From Branchiostoma lanceolatum (taxonomy: Eukaryota; Chordata; Leptocardii; Amphioxiformes; Branchiostomatidae), in the NCBI RefSeq assembly GCF_035083965.1, contig NC_089736.1, positions 6,699,501 through 6,763,500 on the forward strand: a DNA stretch of 64,000 nucleotides. The letters run 5' to 3'. Each line of letters begins with the position of its first letter. Position 1 is the stretch's first letter. A program made the translations under genes and the position numbers. The notes under the pieces were generated by a model. That model had not been told where the DNA came from and ran no database searches. It was given only the letters and a program-made list of their open reading frames with translations. Shown one piece after another: positions 15,965-61,095 of this stretch.

Positions 15965-16322
15965 GTATGTAAGATTTATCACTTTTTTCAGACTTCGGTG
16001 ACTTTGTAAACTTCTGAAATGTCAACCACAGGGATGTCGTGTGTAGTCAAATTGATACATGTCATATCTAGCGTTTTAAGATATACGTATCTTGTCCTAT
16101 GGCTTCTTAGAGATACAGAAGTTGTCTAGTTATTTGTCTGAAGGTGGAATGTTACGCCCACAAATTTTGCATTTTTCAGATACATTTTTACGGCGTAAAT
16201 TTTGACCAGAAGTCGCAGCTTGACCTAAGCTAGATGTACACAGGCATTTTCAAGGCTTCCACGGCAAATTCTGTTCAATATTTCAGTCTTCTGTCGGTGT
16301 AAATCGGGCTAACAGAAGAAGA

Positions 16323-17463
16323 ATGAAGCTGTCTGTGGTCGCTCTTGTGCTGATCACTATCGCCGTGACCTACGCGGCCGACCTCAGCGCCTTGGAAGAC
16401 GTTTTGCAGCGTCTTCGCGATCTTAAGGACAACTTTGAGACAAGAGGATTGTTTAGCTTCGGCAAGGAGAAGAGCGTGAAGCGATGCGACACAAAGAAGA
16501 ACAAGGGTCTGACCAAGGCTTACAACAGGGCCTGCGGGACCAGGTTTAAAAGCTATAGTAAGTCTGAAATTGTAAACAGGTTAAACTATGTACAAACGCT
16601 GCCATGTTGAATTTGGGTATCTATAGTTATAGAAGACTTTTATGTCAATAAAGTTCATTGTATATACTTAGCTGTGAGCATACAAAAATGAACATTCGTT
16701 CCTTCCTTCATTCATTAATTCATTAAGCCATTGATTCATTCGTTCATGCATTCATTGATTGATTAAAACTGCATGTAGTTTCCTTCCACCCCTCCAGCCC
16801 TGGGAGTAAAGCAGGCTTCAACATTTCTGCAGAACTGTAAAACCCTGAGCAGGGAGTGCTGCTCTAAGGAAGGCTGTGTCACCAACGAAATCAAGGAGTG
16901 CTGCCCCAAATGTACGTACCACAGCTGATTATCCATGTGAAATCCAAATGTGACTAGTTCAGGCAGGAGTGCTGGGGGCTGGTATGACATGGGAGTGTTT
17001 TATAGTACACTTTGCTCGTGAAGCTGTCAAACGCCACAAATCTGAATCTTGGGCAGTACATTTTACAGTTTTACCACGTATACCGTTGTTTTTCCGGGGG
17101 CGGGGCTATCTTATTATCAAAATTTTGTTTATAGGCAAACACACCGGACCCCCCCTCCCTATTCTTCTCGATAAGTGTACTGGGGTCTGATGCCTAAGGC
17201 TGACGCCTGAAGCTCCCTAAAACGCGGGCCACCAGCTTCACGTCACAGTCTGAAAAGACGAATGCAATCCCTTCCCTTACAATATGTCCAACCTAGGGTC
17301 CGACCCTGGGATCGAACCCCGGCTCACGGAATTAGAGGGCTTTGATTTACACGTCGAAAGATTACTGGAAAGATCCAAGGCTAAGAATTCTGACTATGAA
17401 AATATCTAGACAAACGTTCTTCCTATTCTAGGGGTAGAGGAGCGGCGAGAGGAGAGGGACTGA
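16323..17463 (+). CDS. Secreted eight-cysteine prepropeptide, paralogue A
   Basis: Coding exons 16323-16557, 16798-16911 and 17432-17463 (126 aa). Signal peptide residues 1-18 ([18 protein letters not shown]), a charged propeptide, and a dibasic KR at 53-54 directly before the first cysteine (55). The mature part has the pattern C-x15-C, then C-x6-CC-x4-C-x7-CC. Paralogue B has the same gene structure, signal peptide, KR site and near-identical spacing. If the last donor (AAAT|GTACGT) is not used, the frame instead ends CCPKCTYHS at 16928, adding a ninth cysteine; the spliced form ends in a charged tail like B. AATAAA follows at about 17578. No known family was recognised. The CC...GC...EI...CC section loosely recalls a relaxin A chain, but spacing differs. 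Confidence 0.75.
17145..17345 (-). mobile_element. tRNA-derived SINE-like repeat
   Basis: Shares CTTCTCGATA(A/G)GTGT.(C/T)TGGG...CCTGAAGCTCCCT with 46615-46770. Read on the minus strand it contains GGGGTTCGATCCCAGG at about 17308-17323, a good Pol III B box, so the head is at the right-hand end. Not a folded tRNA gene. Confidence 0.5.
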
Positions 17464-21690: not shown

Positions 21691-21713
21691 AAGACTAGAC
21701 CACGAGCTGAACC

Positions 21714-22302
21714 ATGAAGCTGTCCGTTGTCGCCCTCGTGGTGATCCTCGCCACCGTGGCCTCGGCGTACGACCAGTCGGACCTGGACGCATGGGACGCC
21801 GCCGTGCAGCGCCTGCGCGCCCTGAAGAAGCGGGGAGGGTGGTGGTTCATCGGCGGCGACGAAAAAGACGCCGACAAGGTGAAGCGTTGTGACACGGACA
21901 CGGACAAGGCGCTGACCAACTCCTACAACAAACTGTGCAAGAGCGAGTTTGCCACCTACAGTAAGTAACGAATACACGAAGCTGCAATTTAAAACAAGCC
22001 TGTAAAATTAAGTTTTCGTCTCGAAACTTTACGAAGACACTCATTCATTCATCTATTCATCCATCCATCCATCCACCAATCCATCCATCCATCCATCAAT
22101 CCATCAATCCATCCATCCATCCATCCATCCATCCATTCGTTCGTTTATTGATTGATTCATTGATTCATTCATGCATTGATTCTTCATTCACTCACTAATT
22201 CATCCGTTCGTTCGTTCGTTCCTTCATGGATTAATTCATTCTTTCATTCGTTCATTCATTCATTTATCCGTTCGTTTGTTCATGGATAGATTGATTGATT
22301 TG

Positions 22303-24461: not shown

Positions 24462-25096
24462 CAGAACATGGCCATTTTGGTAAAAGGTTTCGTATTGGAG
24501 ACTATGACGCTGCAAGTATTGACAATCTAAGCTGTCTCAAGTGTTTCTTATAGACTTTTGAAGGAGCAGAACTTATAAGGTCTTCCAGGTGAACCCTGCG
24601 GAAACGAAGATTGGCAGTCGTTAAGTGTCTCCTGTTTTGACTTCCGTCCCTCATAAGATCTTATCTTAGTCTCGCAGAAAACCTCACCTTGTCCAACAAA
24701 CAATCATTTCCTTCCAATCTCTCGTTCAATCTGCTTGTAAAGGTTCGGATCCGTGAAATATTTGATAATATTTCAGCTTTTAGTTCGACCCTTTTTGACG
24801 TTTTGCGCAGTATAGACACTGACGAGCGCCATACTTTTGACACCTGTTATTTTAAGACGAGAAGGAAGACACTACGCGCACCTCCGACGTCTTGAGTTAC
24901 GCGATACGATCTCTCAAGGATTTAAAGGATCCTTTCTTGGAAAAAAGAAGACTTGAAGTCAGCCTTCTTGCTAAGATACGTCAGCAGCAAAGATATCATT
25001 TGGACGGTGTTTCTAACACGTCGCAGTTTGCTTTTTGACGGTGAACTGAAGACAGGGTTGTGCGATTGACTGTGCTAGGAGGCCAATATATCCACC

Positions 25097-28000
25097 ATGA
25101 AGAAACAACTTGAGACAATCGTAACATTTTGTCTCATCGCACAAGCAGTCATACTTGCCCTTGCTAAGGCTGCAGGTACGTGTCAACTTGTATGGTAATC
25201 TAAATTAAGTATTACTCTGTGAATAGTGTTTTTTGTTGTTGTTAGAAATAGAGACACTGTTTCACTATCCGCGTGAAACACCGTTACAAAAGTTTCTAGT
25301 GGTGCTCAATGAAAGAAACATCAAAATGTTTCCACGAGTTCAGGAAATCTATGCTATGAATCGCAAACATTTGATGTAAAGTAAACGTTAGATGTTAACA
25401 ACGTCTATGTTATTATTTTCATGATACAGATAAAAACTTGAATATGATTAACGGGGCAATACAATTTGCAAGCAAATCTAAGATTATACTTAAATGAGAA
25501 ACTAAACATTTCACTATATATCACTTACGATCTTGAAATGCAGTCTTGTATCAACATACAGTAAGTGCGACAGTATTTATCATATGTCTTACATAAGTTC
25601 TAGGTCATTTCAAAAAACCCTTTCACGTCCTCTCTTTCCCCACAGTTCCCGTGTCACTGGGGTGCTACCAGGATAACCCCTATCACAGCCCTATAATGTC
25701 TGGCTCGGCCACTTCCGCCACCAAAATGACAGTCCAACGCTGCCTTGCGTTCTGTAGGTCGGCTGGAAATAGATACGCAGGGGTGGTCAACAGGTACGGG
25801 TGCCGCTGTGGTAATAAATTTCAAGGCGACACCGTTGTTTCGCGCCTACTACCGGTTTCGGACTGTACTGCACCGTGCGGCGGAGACCGTTCCCAGTTTT
25901 GTGGAGGACCAAGCGGATCGCAGAAAATCGAGTTGTTTGAAGGTAAAACGGCTATTTCATCAACCTGCCACCTATGTCTCTCTTTTTTTTTTTGTTGTTG
26001 TTGTATATATACAATTTGTCTTCTTTTTACGTTCTTGAAAACGGAGGCCGGTATTGCAATCAGTAGATTAATCAGTAGCAATCAGTAGCAATCAATAGGT
26101 TCGTGTTTGTTTGTCTTGGTGTGAGTCCGAAGTTATGTGAATAATACAGAATGTTAACCTACCAGGATGTAAGGCGGGAATGGTATATTGCAAGTCTGGT
26201 TTAGCTCTTGCCCAATGTCGTAGACAAGCACGAAGTGATTACGATGGCTATGTCAGGTCTTTAGGAGTACCCATTTTGTTTATCTTGAAATGAGATTGTC
26301 AGCATTGTTTTCCCAGCTTCTATCGGTGCCTGTGGAGGTGATTTGAGCAATGACGGCGGAATCATCTACTCACCAAACTTCCCTGGTCCGTACCCTCCCA
26401 ACCAGAACTGCACATGGAACATACAAGTCCGTTCTGAAAATATTGTTAGGATCACTTTAAAACTTTCCGAACTGTCCCGAGACGACGACTTGACGATTAT
26501 AGAGCACGGATCGTCACAGAGAGTCATCGAACTTATGAACCGGACTCTAGACATGGAATATATCAGTAGTGGCAATATCATCAGTGTGCAGTTCCGGACA
26601 AAACCGCAAGGGGGGCAGCTGGCACGAAGATTCATTCTGATCTATGAAGGTGAGTTTCTCTGATGGTCAAATCTATGAGTAGTAGGTTGAAGAAATAGAC
26701 ACTCCTTAGTCTTTATTTACTTCTGGGCGTTGTTGGTGTTATAGTTTCTTTTTAAAGTTGCTAGAGAATTGATTTTGTTTTTATGTTTTGTCTTTTTTCG
26801 AAGCTGTTGGCCGTTGTGAAGGCATCCCCATTGGCGCAGGTGTCGAGTCCGTGTCTCCTACAGTCGCTCTCATTGGTCAACGAGTGACGGTCACGTGCAA
26901 GGACGGACGCGCAGTCGCAGTGGAGTGTCAGAAAGACAGACAATTCGACGTCGAAGGTCCATATTGCACCGGTGAGTCACGTGATCCACCACACGACCAA
27001 GGCTTTTGTTTATGGATACAATCACATGGCTATAATCACACCTTTATTTGCATTATATCCATTTCATATCCATTGTACTTGATAATGACTTATTCCGGAG
27101 AATAACTGCCCTTCAGCAAACCCCACTGATGAAGTTGATTCCCCAAATGATTGACAATATGCTTAAACCCAATAAGATACTTAGTAGTAGTACATCGTTT
27201 TGATTATACGGTGATGACTGTAACATAAACAAATAAAACTATCGTAGATTGGAAGTCGCTGGCTTCAATTACTGTAGGAGTATCGTCATTTCATAGATAG
27301 CATCAAACAACGCTTGCAGTTAGATGTCAGTAAAGGCTAGATGTGACAGGCCGTTCAGTGTAATATAACCAGCTGCTGTCGCGCCGCGTACCTGCGAAGC
27401 TGGTGTACGTGTATGTTGGCAGTTTTGCCGGCTTTACAGATACAGATCTACAAAAGAGATAATACTCATGAACTTGGAGATTAATATTAGGTAGAAGGTA
27501 TGGTGCTGGTAGGAATGACAAAGTAGATATTTGCCGAATTGATTATTGATTGCTTTCACTCACAACAACAACAACAACATCAACAACAACATTAATTGTT
27601 TTCCAGCAATGGGTTCTATTCCAGTGCAAGTGTCCACAATAGTAACCGGGACAGTGGTGGCAGTTCTTCTCATTTCATGCAGTGTGAACGCGTTTTTGGT
27701 CATCAAACGTAGGAGAGAGAGAAGGTAAGAGCAAGTACTCAACTTTATAATTACTTGGCTGGAAATTGTACAAAGTTTAGAGAGTCCACTTTATTGTCAT
27801 TTGTTGTAGCGCAGCGCACTCACTTTGACTGAATTATTTCATGAAACATTTAATTTTTTCTCTTTAACGACAAATATCACTGACTTTACGAAATAATAAA
27901 AAAATGAAACAAGCAACTGAATAAATTCTCTGAAGACTCAGACAATTTAAATATCATCCACAATCTTCACCTGTGACTGAGAATGAGTGAAATATATCAC

Positions 28001-28631
28001 TGATGAAAGGCAGTAGATGTTAATATCTGAAACGTCAGACCAAGGACTTGGTCAGACTCTTTAGAGTATCTATTCAATTGCATTATGAAATGTTCTACCT
28101 CCATCGAAACATTACTCACACTTTCTGTACTTTTGCAGGTTAGTGCAAGATTCAAATTCCGAAATCTCTGAACACGATTATGAAGAAATTCCTGATGTTT
28201 TTGAGATGAAGAACACCTCACGGGCACCCGTACTTTTGTCGCCACCTTCTTGCGAATTTCCCACCATAATTGAAACTGGATCCGACTATCAGGAACTGAT
28301 CCCTGCAACGACTGGAAACCGTGACTACACCAGCTTGGCCTTGAACTCAACTCTCGCGAGTTTAGACGAGACTTCAGCACTCGGTGAGAGTGACATGAAA
28401 CATTTCGCACCCATCGCCCCGAGTTCAGCGTCATCTTCAACCGAATTACTTGATACTGAACTTGATTATCAAGTGCTAATTCCGGAAACTATTGAAAACA
28501 GTGACTATACCAGTTTGGCTTGGGACTCAAGTCTCGCGAGAGTGAACGAGACCACAGCAGATGCCGAGAGTGGTGCAAAGTTTGAGAGAAGATTTGGTAG
28601 ATGTTACTATAACATGGCTCAAAACATTTAA
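25097..28631 (+). CDS. WSC-CUB-sushi transmembrane receptor with two ITAM-like tyrosine pairs
   Basis: Six exons, all phase-consistent: 25097-25175, 25646-25942, 26317-26649, 26804-26971, 27607-27724 and 28139-28631 (495 aa). Signal peptide about 1-25; WSC domain 27-125 (LGCYQDNPY, CLAFCRS, GCRCGNKF, CTAPCGGD, FCGGP); CUB domain 126-236 (CGGDLSNDGGIIYSPNFPGP, NCTW); a short four-cysteine sushi/CCP-like module 237-292; membrane segment about 299-325; basic stop RRRERR. The tail (332-495) contains YEEI at 346 and two copies of a 36-residue repeat, each with a pair of YxxL motifs nine residues apart: YQEL 382/YTSL 395 and YQVL 442/YTSL 455. WSC plus CUB recalls Kremen, but there is no kringle and the tail is quite different. 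AATAAA at 28742-28747. Probably a cell-surface signalling receptor. Confidence 0.85.
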
Positions 28632-30420
28632 CTTTTTTGGCCATGTGTTAATTTGTCCCTTTATCCATATATGCCAGTATCGTATACATTTGCTTTTGTT
28701 TGTCTGTTGTTGTTTTTCAAATATATGAGCCAAGGGTCTATAATAAACTTTGACTTGATAGTTGTGATAGCCATATGTTGGCCTGTGAGGTGTTGGTGTG
28801 TCCTCTCATTATGACAAGTGGTGAAATTTTTACGCCAGTCTTCTATGTTTATACCATAATTTTCGTTGTTCTATATCTGGCAGTTCAAAGCGCTTATCTA
28901 TTATCATTGTCAAGGGAAACAAGATACATGTAATGTAAAGAGTAAGTCTTTACACTTACAGTTAAGTTTTAAACCCCGCTTGAATTATATTAAGATAATG
29001 TGTTGATATCTTTGTCACAATAAAAATTGAAACATTATCTTTAAGCTGTTATCATTCTGGAATTATTATAGTCTGAAAATTTCTTTTTGTCATAGATATG
29101 AAAGATACATGAAGGATAACATCAATAAAATTCCTATCTGTTTTTTTAAGGCCTGCCTCTTTCTCAGCATGCGCAGTGTTCTGCGTTTCTTTATCTTCTT
29201 TTTTTGCAATGAAAGAGATTAAAACGTAAAACACTGACACTGTCACTTCATCTGCTTGGAGATTACAATTTCCGGGACCGGTCTCGATTGGTCTGTTTTC
29301 TTCTTCTCTTTTTAATTTCCATCTTACGTGTAGCAGAATAACGTTTCACAAACAAAACCAGACTAATCATAAGCTACAAAGATTACAGTTTTACACGTGG
29401 AACGAAACGATGGTGACCCGAATACCAAAAATAACATCCCAGCGTCGCGTCATTTTGGACTTTTGTCCAGTGGGGGATATCAGTAGCCTTCCAGGCAGCA
29501 GACAGAACGGACTATCGGTAAAACTGACTGAAACGAGATCGTGCTCCATTCAAGTATCGGACCAATTCTTCTGCGTTCTAAACAGCTTCATGGTAAATCA
29601 CATGATTGTTTAGCTATTCACACTCACTAGACTAAGTATTACTTTTGGAATAGTCATTGGCTTGTCCAAGACAATTGCTGTACTTGTGTCGCATATTACC
29701 GGTTTAATACCCCTGTCACATACATGTAGCAAGAAACCCGATTTTTAAAGATCCTCCGAAGTTCGAAGTTCGCAGCCCCATTTAGTACCATGATTGGGTA
29801 GATTTTCAAGCAAAAAATACGCTCGACTCTCGAGCTCGGGTGATTTTGAGAGTGGGCGGCCTTCTAGCGATTGCGTACTTGGTGACAACGAGTTCCACTC
29901 TACGATAGTTATACAAACACATTTAGGGAAAGTTAAATCCTGAGACTGGTCTAGTGTTGCAACGGTTTTGTCGAAGACGTGCCCACATATATAGCTGAAA
30001 GAATAGAATGCGTAATGAAAGTTTATGCCTTCATTCATTGTTTGTATCAAGCTCTCGAGCCATCGAGACAATACAAAGAGGACTACGTAGCATAACTAGT
30101 AGAATGTAATTGTAGATACATGTATGTCCATTTTGTTCTTCAGGTTATTGGCATAGCGGTGGTGTATGAGCAACAGAACAGTTACAGCTACAAAGATAGA
30201 ACAAACATCTTCTATTTCACGAGAAAACGACAAAGCGAACTTCAACAAGGACTTTCTCCTGTTTAGATCATCACCGATTTTCGCCGCATTTTATAGTTTC
30301 ATGTAGCGATTGTTTTCTATTATTTCTTGTCAGTTCCTAGCCGTTGTCCCATCCACATCCATTTCTGTACTATATCTTCATCTAAGTTATTGCTTGGCCA
30401 TGCACTTTTGTTTCTCTTTC

Positions 30421-31858
30421 ATGGCGTTCTTGACAAAGTCGAAGTTTCTCATCTTTATGATACTGGTAGCACTTAACGCATGCGCCAATAATACATTTCC
30501 AGAAAGATGCTTTGTTCGGATTGAAATCAACTGCCCCAAATCCAATATAACCAGTCTACCCACTAAACTACCAGGTATGGTGACCAAAATATTCCTCCAG
30601 GAAAACCGGATACAAACAGTCTATAACCTGTCTATCTTCAAAAACGTCAACACACTAAATCTCAGTCATAACTTCATCAACGATTTCCCTTGGGAATCGT
30701 TGACACATCTTACGCATCTTGTAACGCTTGATTTGTCACATAATCAGTTGTCATTTGTGAGGGTTGACTTGGCTACTCGCAGTTCGAAATTTCTTTATTT
30801 TTTTTAATTTCCACGTAGCCTACAACAAGTTGAGGACGTTTTCTGAGGCGAACTTGGGTATCACGCCCGACATCCGGCCGGTACCGGTGTTGTCGACCAA
30901 TGTTCTGGCACGACGGTTTATACACGGGAACCCCATCCATTGTGATTGCTGTATGTTGTGGTTAGCAGAGATGGCTCTAGCATTTAAAAAATGCACTTCT
31001 TACGAATGTGCATGTAGTTGTTCATCTTCTGTCAAGAATGGTCCGCTGTATCGCGATTTTCGTACACATGGAGTCCCAAACTGTAGCAGTCCTGAAATCA
31101 GGAGAGACACTCCAATACATTTAGCAAACCTCCGTGCTTGCTCTACCAAACAGGACACAAACACCAAAACAACAAAACAAGCAGAAACTGAACTTCCCGT
31201 TTACGAAACAAATGACGTAGCTACTACTTCGACACTTATGTCTACAAAACTTCCCAAAACACAGCCAAACAGTGTATCAATATCTTTATCACAAGACAAC
31301 TCTCATGCCCAGAACACAACATCTAAAACAACAGTTATCAGCCCTATACCAGTTATCATTGTACAGGGTATAATTTTCTCTACTTTCATTTTGGCATTTC
31401 CGATTGTCGTAGTCATAAAAAGGTTCCTTCATACAAGTGAGAGTAGTGATGAACAGAATGAGTCAAGCCAAAATGGAGAAAGTTCGGAAAATCCCCAGTA
31501 TACAAGTGTCTTTGTGAATCCGGTGTACAGTAAAAGTAAGGTTGTAACTTGTAGGTCCCCTGGTCAAGAACTTACCCCTCAAACATGTCCCCAGGACACC
31601 AGTGTCTTTGCGAATCCGGTTTATAGGAAAAGCGATGTTGTGATTTGTGGATCACCTCTCCAAGAACCCACACCACAAACTCCAGGTTCGAATGAGCAGT
31701 CAGAAAGTACATTTGACCCAAATGCAAGTCAAAAATGCAGCGGATCTGAAAGTGAGCAACCCAACCCGCAAAATTCAGGTGAGAATGTATTATACCACAA
31801 TCAGCATGGCTCTATTACCACGCCTACACAAAACAACATGTATGGAGTCGAAGATTAG
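30421..31858 (+). CDS. LRR transmembrane receptor with twin NPVY motifs; frame broken in a T8 tract
   Basis: Starts MAFLTKSKFLIFMILVALNA (signal peptide), then an N-terminal cap (ERCFVRIEINCP), three or four leucine-rich repeats (LDLSHNQL, NLSHNFI) and a C-terminal cap (NPIHCDCCMLWLAEM...C). The upper frame ends in TAA after 30805, and the rest continues one frame over. FFNFHVAYNKL across the junction fits the LRR consensus exactly, so the sequence is coding through the break and an indel in the T8 run at 30798-30805 (sequencing error or real mutation) is the simplest reading. After a Thr-rich stalk come a membrane segment (PVIIVQGIIFSTFILAF...) and a tail with a duplicated block, TSVF(V/A)NPVY(S/R)KS, plus YTSV, VLYHN and NMYG. 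Ends at TAG 31856. Resembles LRR-only membrane receptors; ligand unknown. Confidence 0.75.
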
Positions 31859-33485: not shown

Positions 33486-33971
33486 TAGACATTTATCATC
33501 CTTGTGAACATGGGGGGGGGGGTTGTTAAGGTAGACTTAAGATGAAATGACAAGTCACGTTAGGTCAGTGGACTAGCATTATGTATTGTACAGCTTGACG
33601 ACGTCGTTTTGTTTAAATCACTGTAAATAAGACGTAAATACCTACTGTTATTTTTACCAATGTGGTTGATTGAATTTCATGCATTTTTGTCACAATCACA
33701 TGTATAAGACATGAATAGTAACATGTGTAGTTTAAGTGTTTGATTAGTCTTTCTTGCTGTATTTGTATATGTATTTTTGAATTGTTTGCAGAGCACCCGA
33801 TACGCATTGAATGACCGTATAAGTGGAAACTATCATAGAAAGTAAGCATTTGAACGATCAATGAAATACATGTTTATCAATACATGTGTGAAAGCAAATA
33901 TCTTTGAATTCAATATGCTTTTTCTTCGTGCTGGTGTCGAATTTCATTCACTTGCAATCAAACCGAATTGT

Positions 33972-34676
33972 TCTTCGTGCTGAACACCATCCACACACTG
34001 ACAAACATGCCTGCCCTTGGTACTGAAACCATCCACACACTGGCAAATATACCAGTCCTTGGTACTGAACACCATCCACACACTGACAAACATGCCTGTC
34101 CGTGGTACTGAACACCATCCACACACTGGCAAACATGCCTGTCCTTGGTACTGAACACCATCCACACACTGACAAACATGCCTGCCCTTGGTACTGAACA
34201 CCATCCACACACTGACAAACATGCCTGTCCTTGGTGCTGAACACCATCCACACACTGGCAAATATACCAGACCTTGGTACTGAACACCATCCACACACTG
34301 ACAAACATGCCTGTCCTTGGTGCTGAACACCATCCACACACAGGCAAACATACCTGTCCTTGGTACTGAACACCATCCACACACTGACAAACATGCCTGT
34401 TCTTGGTGCTGAACACCATCCACACACTGGCAAATATACCTGTCCTTGATACTGAACACCATCCACACACAGGCAAACATATCTGTCCTTGGTACTGAAC
34501 ACCATCCACACACAGGCAAACATACCTGTTCTTGGTACTGAACACCATCCAGACACAGGCAAACATGCCTGTCCTTGGTACTGAACACCATCCACACACT
34601 CACAAACATGCCTGTCCTTGGTACTGAACACCATCCACACACTGGTAAACATACCTGTCCTTGGTACTGAACACCA
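33972..34676. repeat. 43-bp minisatellite, about 16 units
   Basis: Unit like GGTACTGAACACCATCCACA-CACTGACAAACATGCCTGTCCTT with few differences between copies; one unit is shortened near 34027. It starts about 175 bases beyond the stop codon of the kringle gene. Three minus-strand frames are open along the whole array because 43 is not a multiple of three and the unit lacks stops. Diverged relatives occur at 42545-42690 and 60630-61095. Confidence 0.95.
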
Positions 34677-34850: not shown

Positions 34851-37800
34851 TTATGAGGAACGGCGTTTGTCAAAGATGAAGCGGTCTCCACGGTAACCGC
34901 GGCAGGAGCAGTTTTCTCGCCGGGAGAGCTTCTTCCAGGTCCCTTGGCACCCGACGGTGTCCGCCGCCTCCCACCATCTGTCGGTGTTCGGCCCACGGTC
35001 CCCGATGCAGCGCATCTTCCTGTCCATGGCGTGCGGCTGACCCTCCACGCACACGTTAGCACCGGCCCGGATAGTCCGCGTCCAGCGTGCGGAGTAGTGG
35101 AGACGGCAGGCAACCGAGTTGGAGATGATTTCAAAGTACATACAATACCTTTAAAATAAAGATGCGAAAAAAAGTCATTTGCATGCATATATGTATTTTT
35201 TCATCAAAATCACTATCTTTTCAAAATTCTGAATCAAATAATGTAAAATAACACAGTTACTGATCACGAAGAGTTAGATGATTGCTATCGCTTTTCGATA
35301 GCTTTCAAAGTTGATCTCTACGTTAATCAGTCACATTGGACCGGGACGGGGGTTGCCAACAGCTACAAACTTCTTGGCGAAGGTCAAGTTCACGGCACTG
35401 ATAAACACATTCATGTCAGGTTCATCTGTGAAGTAGAGGGAAGTGCTAACCATACACTCACGTGTGCGATGTCCAGTTAACCGTGATGTGGCCCATGGCT
35501 CCCGCCATTTCGTCGGTCTTTGGTCGCTGACCGTAGGGAGCTGGCATGATGTACGCTTTCACTGCACAACAAGGGCCACGAAATATCGTTAAGCGTTGGT
35601 AGCATTAATCTATACAATCTACGGGAGGACGCAAGTGGGCGCACCAGTATACGATGCTAGCTACATTGAAATGTCGAGGAGCAGTAGCAGTAGATCTAAA
35701 TGAAAGGATATGATTCAAAGCGAAATTACAAACATAACAAACATCACGTCTTGTTTTGGACGTTACAGAATCAGTCCTTACCACAGCATGGTGCGTCACA
35801 CACATCCCATCTCTTGCTGGGATCCGTGGTGTAGCACCAAAGTCTGGTCCAGCGGTCTGGATTCCGGCAGTAGTTCTGTTCCAATCCAGCTGAAGGGTAC
35901 CTGGCCGGTGTCCTGTCATGCACATGCGGCGTCTGACTGTCCCAGCGTTGACACGTCCTGCCTGTGGCGGTCACAGAGATTTTTCCACGGTAGGATCCCC
36001 CAAATCCCATCCCGCAATTTTCTGGTTCCGATGAAATGTTTAAAAATAGTTATTATTGATAAACGTTGTGGGTCTGCATGCTATTTTCCGTTATGCTTAG
36101 GTCCCAAATGGAAAACGGGCCCCGGCGGGAACTTGGCTGTTTCGCACTTTCAGGCGTGACCCCTACGTATGCGTAGCCCCGTGGGACACCCTGAATAGCC
36201 CCCGGCCGGGACGCCGAATCATCTTAACTCGGACTTAAAATCAACGCGGGACCCGGGAACCAATTAAAACCGTGATCTAATCGTGCGAATTTTAGCGTAA
36301 TACGTCAAGGGCATACTTCTGAATTCAGCGTAAAGGTCTGTCGGGACCACTTCCCGCAGACCCTCTTTGCGAAGGTGCAATGTAGGGTGACTGCATTGAA
36401 TTTCAAGCGGAACATATTTAAGTCATAGGGACCATGATCGGATAGGTGTAAAGCTTACGAAGACACATCGTTGAATAACAATGCTTTGAATTTAGATACC
36501 TGAGTTGCTCCCTTGAAGGATGGGTGAGTTAGAACTATCACTGCTCCCAAGCTTCGGTGGGTGGGTACCGTCAGTGCTCCAAAGGGTCGGTGGGTGGTTA
36601 CCGTCAGTGCTCCAAATGGTCGATGGGTTGTTACCGTTTGTGCTCTCAGATGTAGGTGGATCCGTGCAGTTAGTGCTCCCAAAGATGGGTGAGTTGGCAT
36701 CCGTGCTAAACTGGAAAACGAAAGCAGCAGCAACAACAACAACACAAACTTGACAACTTTGTACATCCTTTGGTCACTGAACTGTTCCCTATAACAGTGT
36801 CCAATCATGTGGAAAGGGGACCTAAAGTTTTATCCTCGTTTCCATGATTCATTTAATGGGGGTATTGTTTTCAGTGTGTTTGTTTGTGTTTTTGCATTAT
36901 GTATTTTTCATATACTAGTCTCAAGTTTACGGCAGTGACAGGAAGTGAAGGTCATAGTTGCCAGAGTTACAAAAAGTAAAGTTCGTTGCCAGCATTACCT
37001 TGTGGTGTCAACCGACAGACATTACAGGTCATGGGGTCAATGGAAGATCCTACTAGTTCACAGGGATGTAATGGCTTTTGGTCTGTCTGTCATTTTTGCA
37101 GTTGCATATTTTCAATATGGTAGTCGTCTTCACCGTAGAATGTCAGGGATCGAGCTACGCTGCATATCATATTTCAGTCAGCTTTAGTTTATGTTCAATA
37201 TATTCTCTGTCTACAAGAGATATGAAGCATTTACCATTTGGATGCCCTCATCCTGCTTGTTGGGGTACAGTGCAAGGATGATTGCCATAGTCGTCACCCC
37301 TATCAGGGCAAGGCAGACCATCGTGAGAGTGGGCCAGTGAAGGATTGCAGAACGCCCTGTTCAAAACAATTCAAATGTCATGATTATTGTCTTTCTTCGC
37401 AGCCAAGGGCTGAATTGCAAGGGGCTTGCAATTGTTGAGAAAAGATCGCCACCTCTGTACGACAATTGTCCCATGTGCGGCCATAGGACAAATTCAAATC
37501 ATCTAAACTAAAGGTGACACAGAGATCTTCAACAGAAATTGATACTAATTGTGGTCCCACGCAACAATTAAACAAGTCTAATAGACATTTTTCTGCATTT
37601 CTGCAGGTAACTGATAAATTTAGGCTACATGCACCACTGGCAAATTTTACCAGTAGCTGTTTTCTTAAAGTGCCTTTCAGTCTATGAAACATATTTTGAA
37701 GGGGTCTTATGTATGAATCAATACATGACAATAGTCCCACACGAAGGTGAACAATAAACATCACGAGAATAGCATGTCTCCAAAACGGGTTTACAAAGAG

Positions 37801-40036
37801 AAAAACGGTGATCTCAGATAAAGGTAGTCCTATAGCCTTTTTGAGGCCGTAGGGCAGAGGGTTGTTCTCCACTGTGTCTAGCTAGGGCACGGTATTGGAA
37901 GGCGGAGCTCAACCCTCTTTTTCCACCGCCTTTTACCTCCCCAACCGAAGTCAGGTACCTATTTTTACACATGGGTGGAGTGAGGAAAGACGTGTAAAAG
38001 GCATTTCTCAAGGGCACAACATCGGTGGCAGGTCAGGGGATTCGAACCCAGGACCTCTGGCTTCTGGGCCAAACACCCCAGCATGACACCACAAACTACG
38101 GTAAGCGAACCTTAATATTCTCCCTGTTGCCTAAACCCTTAACCAATGAAAATCTAGTGCCAAACAGGTTCTTTAGCATACCGAGGGTGAAAGCACTAGT
38201 AACACTGCAAAAAATTGTAAAACAAAACAATGTTACGTTGCCTTACCATTTAAAGCATGTTGACGATTGTTTCCTCTATTTATCGGTTTGTGTTGACGTT
38301 CATTTGCCTCCAGAGGACCATGAAGCTCATGTACTATGGCGTCACCGCTTATATTTTCCAGATTTGCTTCCGCGCCATTCTCATACATGTTTGCCACAGC
38401 GCATGGTTTTAAATACTCAGTATCGTCAAAGACGCCATGATGCTTGGTTTCATGGTAGGCATCATTCTTTGTGGCAATAGTGTTTTCATTGGTGTAAAAA
38501 CGTACAGTACTGACCGCTTGTTTGGTTTTAGGTTCTTTTTCTGCATACAACTTGTTTTCTTCAGCTGTAGCTTTAAAATGCACTTCTTCATTTGTCTCAG
38601 AGAAAGTGTACAAGGCGCTCGAGTCTTCAATACTGTCTGCTTGTTTGGCTTTAGGTTCTTTTTCTGCATACAAGTTGTTATCTTCAGTTGTAGCTTTAAA
38701 ATGTACTTCTTCATTTGTCCCAGTGAAAGTGTACAAGGCGCTCGAGTCTTCAGTACTGTCTGCTTGTTTGGCTTTAGGTTCTTTTTCTGCATACAAGTTG
38801 TTTTCTTCAGTTGTAGCTTTAAAATGCACTTCTTCATTTGTCCCAGTGAAAGTGTACAAGGCGCTCGAGTCTTCAGTACTGTCTGCTTGTTTGGCTTTAG
38901 GTTCTTTTTCTGCATACAAGTTGTTTTCTTCAGTTGTAGCTTTAAAATGCACTTCTTCATTTGTCCCAGTGAAACTGTACAAGGCGCTCGAGCATTCAGT
39001 TCTGTCTGTTTGTTTGGCTTTAGGTTCTTTTCCTGCATACAAATTGTTTTCTTCAGCTATAGCTGTTGCTTCTTCATTTGTCCCAGGGAAATTATACAAG
39101 CCACTCGGGTCTTCAGCTCCGTTCTTAGTACATGCAAGATTGCATACATCAGTGGCCTCTGGAGTGGGGATATCGTTATTTTCTGCATGATGATCGCTTG
39201 TCTTGTCATCAGGCCGACTGGCACAACTGCTTAATATGCGTTCAAGTTCATTGCCAGCTATGTACGTGGCCTCTACTGACAACATGTCTTGTCCAGTAGT
39301 TGGAGATCCGCTACCGTATAGTGGCAAAATTGTTTTTGGTGACGCCTCAAGGGCGGAGGTATTTTTAGGATTTGCAATGTTTCCTTTATACATGGCGTCT
39401 ATTTCTTCGTGTTTTGATGTTTGTGTGTCTGGCTTCTCGTCATTTGTAGAATATATTGGATTGTTGTCATCTGTAGCTGGTTCAAGTACAGGATCTTGCA
39501 GACTTGCAGTTTCTGTTGAATCTGCTGTAAAACATGAAATGTTATGTTTACATCACGAAGTCTTTATGTACCAATCAATAAAACAATCAAGTTGCACCAA
39601 CCAACCAACCAACCAACCAATCTGTCAATTCATGCCAAATACATTGTCTAGCATTTTCAATAACTGTGAGCACAAAATACGATGAAGGGGGCTGATCCGC
39701 TGGTAGTGATGTGTGTGTTTAACTACCATACTCTTTCACAAATACTGAGTGCTAAGCAGAGAAAGCAGTATGTACCATTTTTAAAGTCTTTGGCATGACC
39801 CGGCCAGGGTTGAACTCACGACCTACCGTGTACAAGGTGCACACTCTACCAACTACGCTATTGCACCTTCCCCGCAATGCCCCCATATAACACTTTTTTT
39901 CTGTTCAAAGATCCTATGTCCACACAGTCTCCAGATATAACATATACCATGCACTGAGCACCCCTGCCCCCGGTGTGTGTGACTTACCTGTGGCGGAAAA
40001 TGTATCCTCCTCTGTCTTTCTTGTTCCGGACATCAT
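34851..40036 (-). CDS. Type II membrane protein with tyrosine-rich tandem repeats and an extracellular kringle
   Basis: Seven minus-strand exons, all phase-consistent: 40036-39988, 39524-38247, 37356-37235, 36710-36500, 36021-35782, 35561-35462 and 35148-34851 (765 aa). No signal peptide. Residues 1-442 are hydrophilic and include about five copies of a 41-residue repeat with two tyrosines each (SSALYTFTGTNEE and NNLYAEKEPK). Membrane segment about 447-470 with positive charge on the N-side, implying N-in topology. Then a Ser/Thr/Pro stalk with WSTDGNHPPT-type repeats (484-553), one canonical kringle (CGMGFGGSYRG, GRTCQRW, PHVHD, AGLEQNYCRNPD, WCYTTDP, RWDVC), and a C-terminal cysteine-rich domain (TYCMYFEI...NCSCRGYRG) that I do not recognise. 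Further 5' UTR exons may lie upstream. Probably a surface binding protein with a phosphotyrosine docking tail. Confidence 0.8.
37830..38092 (-). mobile_element. tRNA-derived SINE, copy 2, in a kringle-gene intron
   Basis: Same order of blocks as 33205-33485 (CACGGTATTGGAAGG, CCTTTTACCTCCCCAACCGA, GGATTCGAACCCAGGACCTC). Same minus orientation. Lies in the intron between the repeat exon and the membrane exon. Confidence 0.75.
39775..39885 (-). mobile_element. tRNA-like SINE head
   Basis: Minus strand reads ATAGCGTAGTTGGTAGAGTG (A-box region) and GTCGTGAGTTCAACCCTGG (B box) at about tRNA spacing. No full cloverleaf or acceptor stem was found, so a SINE fragment is preferred over a tRNA gene. 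Lies in intron 1 sequence of the kringle gene. Confidence 0.5.
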
Positions 40037-42378: not shown

Positions 42379-42520
42379 CTCAAGACATCTTAAAGACATT
42401 ATCAACACCTCAAGACATCTTAGAGACATTATCAACATCTCAAGACATCTTAAAGACATTATCAACATCTCAAGACGTCTTAAAGACGCTCGCAATATCT
42501 CAAGTCTTAAAGACTTTCAG
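42379..42520 (+). repeat. 30-bp tandem repeat, about 4.5 units
   Basis: Unit TCAAGACATCTTAAAGACAT plus TATCAACATC, repeated with small changes (AGAGACATT, GACGTC, GACGCTCG). Confidence 0.9.
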
Positions 42521-42544
42521 GGACAAGGAGGTTTGGCTATGTGT

Positions 42545-42690
42545 AGATTGAGTTCAGCACCAGGGACAGGCATGTTCAGCTATGTGTGGATGGTGTTAAA
42601 CACCAGAAACAGGAATGTTTGGCTATGCGAGGAAGGTGTTCAGCACCAAGGACAGGGCAGTATACCTGTGTGTGGATGGTGTGTGGATGG
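42545..42690. repeat. Diverged fragment of the 43-bp minisatellite, inverted
   Basis: GTGTGGATGGTGTT, CACCA(A/G)GGACAGG and TGTTTGGCTATG are the reverse complement of the unit at 33972-34676, here in three or four decayed copies. Confidence 0.7.
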
Positions 42691-60629: not shown

Positions 60630-61095
60630 GAAAGCCATCCACAAACAGGCAAACGCTCCTGACCCTGATGCTGAATTGAACGCCATCCATTCAGTGAAAC
60701 ACATCTGTGCTAGTGCTGAAAACCACCCAAACACAGATAATCAGTCAGACGTGTCCTTTGTGCTGAACGCCATCCACTGTTTCTGCCTATGTTGCTGAAA
60801 ACCACCCATAGAACTAATCAGGATACCCGTCCTTGGTACTGAACGCCATCCACATTGTGAAATTAACCTATACTGGCATTGAAAAACATCCACTCATAGA
60901 TAAACATGCCTGCCTTTGGTGCTGAAAACCACCCATACACGGATAAGCATACCTGTCCTTGGTGCTTAACACCATCCACACAAACACTTCTGTACTGGCG
61001 CTGAAAACCATCCACAAACAGGCAACTACACTTGTCCCTGGTGCTGAACACCATCTACACACAGATTAACACATCTGTCTTAGTGCTGAATGCCA
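60630..61095. repeat. Diverged 43-bp minisatellite array
   Basis: About ten decayed units like GGTGCTGAACACCATCCACA-...AACAC-CTGTCCTTGG, same orientation as 33972-34676 but far less homogeneous. Confidence 0.85.

Follow-up and report, generated by a model that had tools for sequence, protein, structure and literature searches.

KREMEN1 has been described as a kringle-WSC-CUB protein with a transmembrane segment (PMC5014086). The amphioxus receptor BbLcLRR, a Lck-associated leucine-rich-repeat (LRR) protein, has been described as single-pass and WSC-bearing, with Asp-Tyr sites in its tail (PMC8211107). Here, we analyze a predicted gene in a 64,000-nucleotide stretch of Branchiostoma lanceolatum DNA (contig NC_089736.1, positions 6,699,501 to 6,763,500; hereafter, the window). 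The gene combines a Kremen-like WSC-CUB ectodomain lacking the kringle with a cytoplasmic tail that contains two pairs of YxxL motifs, spaced as in immunoreceptor tyrosine-based activation motifs (ITAMs).

ITAMs in the receptor's own tail have been reported in several other systems. Draper and MEGF10 carry one that is written by a Src-family kinase and read by Shark or Syk (PMC8092387, PMC4503800), the arrangement that we infer for the lancelet protein; their ectodomains, however, are EMI/EGF-like, and they possess true NPxY motifs. G6f-like, a fish collagen receptor, is likewise a self-contained ITAM receptor, but it has four immunoglobulin (Ig)-like domains and its ITAM spans two exons (PMC3528668). 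The Hydractinia Alr and Botryllus FcoR candidates are invertebrate receptors with tails of the ITAM, hemITAM, or immunoreceptor tyrosine-based inhibitory motif (ITIM) type, but they belong to allorecognition loci, and the Botryllus ectodomains described are Ig-superfamily (FcoR) or Ig/Sushi-bearing, not WSC-CUB (PMC12065747). Our literature search, with subscription journals outside its scope, returned by title no receptor combining WSC, CUB, and ITAM; for WSC, CUB, or ITIM receptors of Branchiostoma, only the BbLcLRR paper was relevant by title and abstract.

Paired YxxL motifs of the tail

Five of the seven tail tyrosines (Y346, Y382, Y395, Y442, and Y455) lie in YxxL/I motifs, and the last four of these form two YxxL-x9-YxxL pairs C-terminal to the predicted membrane span. 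The gap of nine residues falls inside the published ITAM range of 6–12 (PMC3528668, PMC9731471). The tail exon, the residue numbers, and the x9 spacing of both pairs given by the first-pass annotation agree exactly with the reconstructed gene. The 36-residue duplication that it reported is present too, with copies 60 residues apart and 20 of 36 residues identical. All five motif tyrosines are preceded by Asp; with 12 Asp among the 163 tail residues, the probability is about 0.0004 for three independent sites in this post hoc test. The C-terminus of the tail contains YYNM (residues 488–491), which fits both the PI3K pattern YxxM and the Grb2 pattern YxN. A search with the tail alone gives a sole match, TFIID subunit 8 (E 0.1), which we judge to be chance.

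In 200,000 shuffles of residues 329–495 (167 residues), at least one pair of the form YxxL/I-x6-12-YxxL/I occurs with P = 0.031, and with P = 0.015 in a 131-residue version from which the second copy is removed. For the full tail, P is 0.0013 for at least two pairs and 0.0008 for at least five YxxL/I motifs. One pair could arise by chance; five YxxL/I motifs are less readily obtained. The loose ITAM pattern is frequent in DNA as such. Across six frames of the whole window, it has 33 matches, the two tail pairs included and some within low-complexity stretches; 20 sequences generated by a first-order Markov model average 12.95 (range, 8 to 20).

Selection between the two tail copies, that is, between internal copies of one gene, is stronger evidence than the motif statistics. 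For residues 380–399, there are 11 changes at 14.8 synonymous sites and 7 at 45.2 non-synonymous sites (proportions pS 0.742 and pN 0.155; dN/dS 0.05), whereas the flank 400–415 has a dN/dS of 0.72. Fisher's test gives 7e-5 for residues 380–399, a region picked by eye, and 0.006 for the 36-codon block. In neutral simulations, the synonymous excess of residues 380–399 has P up to 0.003, and the flanks 400–415 and 370–379 show no such excess. Because the region had been picked by eye, we scanned residues 370–415 with windows of 15, 20, and 25 codons, kappa from 1 to 8, and 2000 simulations per setting. The best window begins at D381 for all three lengths, with scan-corrected P of 0.004–0.031, 0–0.0045, and 0.0005–0.0095, respectively. 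The constrained stretch extends from Asp381 to just beyond the second Leu, and the flanks drift. Judged from sequence, the paired YxxL unit is probably functional.

Ectodomain and gene model

The predicted gene lies on the + strand, has six exons joined by GT-AG junctions throughout, and encodes 495 residues (Table 1). An in-frame stop codon is located at 25076, upstream of the ATG. Exons 1 to 5 (signal peptide, WSC, CUB, four-cysteine module, and membrane span) are separated by four introns of phase 1, as is usual for shuffled extracellular modules; the last intron is phase 2. Retention of intron 5 would introduce a TAA (27726–27728, + strand) directly after RERR, predicting a tail-less, decoy-like form. 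In the window, tblastn (E up to 1) finds no second WSC-CUB copy and matches only the six exons of the gene itself, and one scan of viral contigs gives zero matches to the protein.

Table 1 Features of the predicted WSC-CUB receptor gene
Feature	Position	Strand	Description
Gene	25097-28631	+	six exons
Exon 1	25097-25175	+	ATG and hydrophobic signal-peptide-like stretch
Exon 2	25646-25942	+	WSC domain, phase 1-1
Exon 3	26317-26649	+	CUB domain, phase 1-1
Exon 4	26804-26971	+	four-cysteine module, possibly divergent sushi/CCP, phase 1-1
Exon 5	27607-27724	+	membrane span (residues 301-325 uncharged), then KRRRERR
Exon 6	28139-28631	+	entire phosphotyrosine tail and stop codon
YEEI (Y346)	28179-28190	+	tail exon
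First pair, YQEL382-x9-YTSL395	28287-28337	+	tail exon
Second pair, YQVL442-x9-YTSL455	28467-28517	+	tail exon
AATAAA	28742-28747	+	3' of stop codon

In Pfam scans, which covered 33 sequences in total, a subset of the open frames of the window, exon 2 matches WSC (PF01822, E 1.9e-17) and exon 3 matches CUB (PF00431, E 1.4e-10). Together with the uncharged hydrophobic span, these matches bear out the WSC and CUB receptor proposed in the first-pass annotation, here predicted to be single-pass. All eight cysteines of the WSC exon align with KREMEN1 cysteines, as judged by eye, and residues 131–239 match cubilin (5.3e-20). The best solved-structure match is KREMEN1 (4e-29, residues 25–198, covering WSC, the linker, and the start of CUB), which also accounts for the top 4 of 23 such matches. 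The combination of WSC and CUB, which the annotation did not know from vertebrates, is the arrangement of KREMEN1. As in KREMEN1 and KREMEN2, CUB directly follows WSC through a similar linker, in a topology predicted here to be single-pass. The lancelet gene differs from them in lacking the kringle, in having an extra four-cysteine module, and in its longer tail carrying the paired YxxL motifs. In addition, Xenopus tropicalis kremen 2 is reported to have a phase 0 intron within WSC (PMC3927609), whereas the lancelet WSC is a single uninterrupted exon.

Pfam detects no kringle in the 495-residue protein, in which exon 1 runs straight into WSC, or in any of the 10 + strand open frames of at least 40 residues scanned between 24173 and 25673. 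The sole kringle among the frames scanned (6e-26) is located at 35774–36049 on the minus strand, downstream of and outside the WSC-CUB gene. A SBSPON-like C-terminal domain (4.7e-12; 34854–35150, minus strand) is likewise downstream and separate.

The annotation also placed a sushi-like module in the ectodomain, and this label fares less well than WSC and CUB. With Foldseek, exon 4 has no match at E up to 0.001, and the top matches listed are mainly apoptosis-inducing factor rather than CCP proteins. Searched alone, exon 4 gives 28 matches with E of 0.13 or worse (antibody chains, spike glycoprotein E2), which we judge to be chance. A sushi/CCP-like fold of this module is weakly supported by structure comparison.

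Possible roles of the tail

Starting from the computed domains, topology, motifs, spacing, duplication, and paired-unit constraint, we tentatively propose ITAM-like bidentate docking as the role of the tail, with a rough probability of 0.42. The protein would cross the membrane once, with a kringle-less WSC-CUB ectodomain of Kremen type and a putative sushi-like module next to the membrane on the outside, and would signal by phosphotyrosine docking on the inside. Where expressed, it would be clustered by a ligand, upon which its D-Y-x-x-L/I sites would become substrates of a Src-family kinase. Once phosphorylated, each Y-x-x-L-x9-Y-x-x-L unit would present a two-point dock for a tandem-SH2 protein, most likely an invertebrate Syk/Shark-type kinase, and the output would be activating. 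The membrane span is uncharged and the tail is its own, suggesting that the receptor is self-contained. The components have precedents: ITAM-Src42A-Shark signalling by Draper (PMC4503800), Syk-related proteins or kinases in some invertebrates (PMC9486129, PMC10253181), a functional amphioxus Src-family kinase, Lck (BbLck; PMC8211107), and amphioxus slp76, GADS, and Itk (PMC5431462). For a lancelet Syk, the literature search mentioned above returned no paper, and the main text of a paper on ancestral Syk does not name amphioxus, lancelet, or Branchiostoma (PMC9601881).

Several observations weigh against this proposal. In many vertebrate ITAMs, the gap is shorter, at 6–8 residues. Both tail pairs lie within exon 6, whereas classical ITAMs are described as split over two exons (PMC3528668). 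According to the 2017 amphioxus paper, no Zap70 homologue had been reported in amphioxus (PMC5431462). The synonymous excess of the whole 36-codon block varies with transition bias and starting copy (P 0.0017 to 0.096) and is weak under high transition bias. Plain identity is ordinary: 20 or more of the 36 residues stay identical in 23 to 30% of neutral runs, about 9% retain all four Y and L/I, and agreement at 14 or more of the 20 core residues has P of 0.027–0.036. The identity also spans residues needless for an ITAM (IP, T, N, D, TS), so that the reader of the tail may recognize something else. Moreover, the tail duplication of a neighbouring LRR gene, which contains no paired YxxL, is likewise constrained (dN/dS 0.15). 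Set against unremarkable identity and the constrained LRR tail, the constraint favours a functional paired unit without pointing to ITAM function in particular.

Of the four YxxL motifs in the pairs, three (Y382, Y442, and Y455) match the ITIM pattern S/I/V/L-x-Y-x-x-I/V/L, which also weighs against ITAM-like use and points to an inhibitory receptor whose phosphorylated YxxL motifs would recruit SHP- or SHIP-type phosphatases. This role is unlikely, though it deserves serious consideration. By analogy, BbLcLRR is the closest functional amphioxus precedent found, and it is inhibitory, as reported in Jurkat cells. Its tail sites (DDYATV, HDYSEV, and HDYDDP) have Asp at -1 like all five sites here, and it is phosphorylated by Lck and associates with SHIP1 and, to a lesser extent, SHP1/2 (PMC8211107). 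However, single ITIMs do not explain the close pairing, with 13 residues from Tyr to Tyr, or why YTSL395 has been kept; this motif has no ITIM residue at -2 and, like Y346, lies outside the pattern. BbLcLRR itself has an LRR ectodomain, CUB is missing from the domains listed for it, and its three ITIM or ITIM-like sites (Y539, Y655, and Y690) form no close pair (PMC8211107). An endocytic or engulfment tail, in which YxxL would serve AP-2 sorting, N-x-D-Y would provide phosphotyrosine-binding (PTB) domain sites of the CED-6/GULP type, and uptake would be the main output, is rather improbable. The second tyrosine of both pairs is in a NxxY context (NRDY and NSDY) with N and D the same in both copies, but R or S occupies the P position of a true NPxY, and AP-2 requires a single tyrosine motif, not a conserved pair. 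In favour of uptake, NPxY is found next to the ITAM in Draper and MEGF10 (PMC8092387), and LRP6 is reported to be depleted from the surface via a Kremen-Dkk-LRP6 complex (PMC5014086).

The structure matches to KREMEN1 would suit a Kremen-type Wnt/Dkk co-receptor that has lost its kringle and in which the tail is of minor importance, but Wnt antagonism is reported to require an intact kringle-WSC-CUB triplet, with the Dkk site formed by kringle and WSC (PMC5014086). The kringle is absent from the exons and from the 10 + strand frames scanned, the tail exon encodes 163 residues compared with 60–75 in Kremen tails, and the paired unit is constrained; we consider this role most improbable. Nor do the pairs readily pass as chance by-products of the composition of a disordered tail that underwent one duplication and has since drifted. 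The shuffling result for one pair, a between-copy identity within neutral expectation, and the 1085 hits of the same loose ITAM pattern in a mouse screen (PMC6189171) would allow it, but the restriction of the synonymous excess to the paired unit makes it very unlikely.

Neighbouring features and meaning for the lancelet

The LRR gene (30307–31855, + strand) probably encodes a membrane protein, with the span identified by eye. Its LRR and tail are in different overlapping frames, indicating an intron or a frame break, and the 32-residue tail duplication contains NPVY in both copies and YTSV in one versus DTSV in the other. On the minus strand, an open frame of 439 codons (38236–39552) contains five 123-bp repeats with ALYTF...NLYAEKEP and a NPIY site, and is possibly another receptor tail. 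On the + strand, 16224–16607 and 21711–21965 are small frames that resemble secreted proteins, are related to each other, and start with MKLSVVAL; the second lies just after a 334-bp tandem repeat. Six mir-2060 matches above the Rfam gathering score lie within or overlap 43-bp minisatellite arrays (33969–34676, 42518–42682, and 60880–60982), in keeping with a Branchiostoma source. The B. belcheri mature microRNA bbe-miR-2060c-3p (PMC5650284) occurs in the window at two places without mismatch and at six more with one mismatch, and within the first two arrays its copies are spaced by multiples of the array period. The lancelet mir-2060 "microRNA family" looks like tandem-repeat sequence.

If the pairs act as ITAMs, the lancelet would have an activating receptor with a Kremen WSC-CUB-type ectodomain that requires no adaptor chain. 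The invertebrate receptors upstream of Src-Syk signalling would then include a further class of ectodomain, and the published amphioxus Lck and slp76/GADS/Itk modules, for the latter of which the authors report finding no LAT-like molecule (PMC5431462), would gain a concrete upstream candidate. A broader scenario is doubtful, namely that an early-chordate Kremen-related WSC-CUB receptor acquired two tandem ITAM-like units and turned into a self-contained activating receptor of immune type. In that scenario, an ectodomain of the Wnt co-receptor type would be tied to Syk-type signalling in a family other than Ig or C-type lectin.
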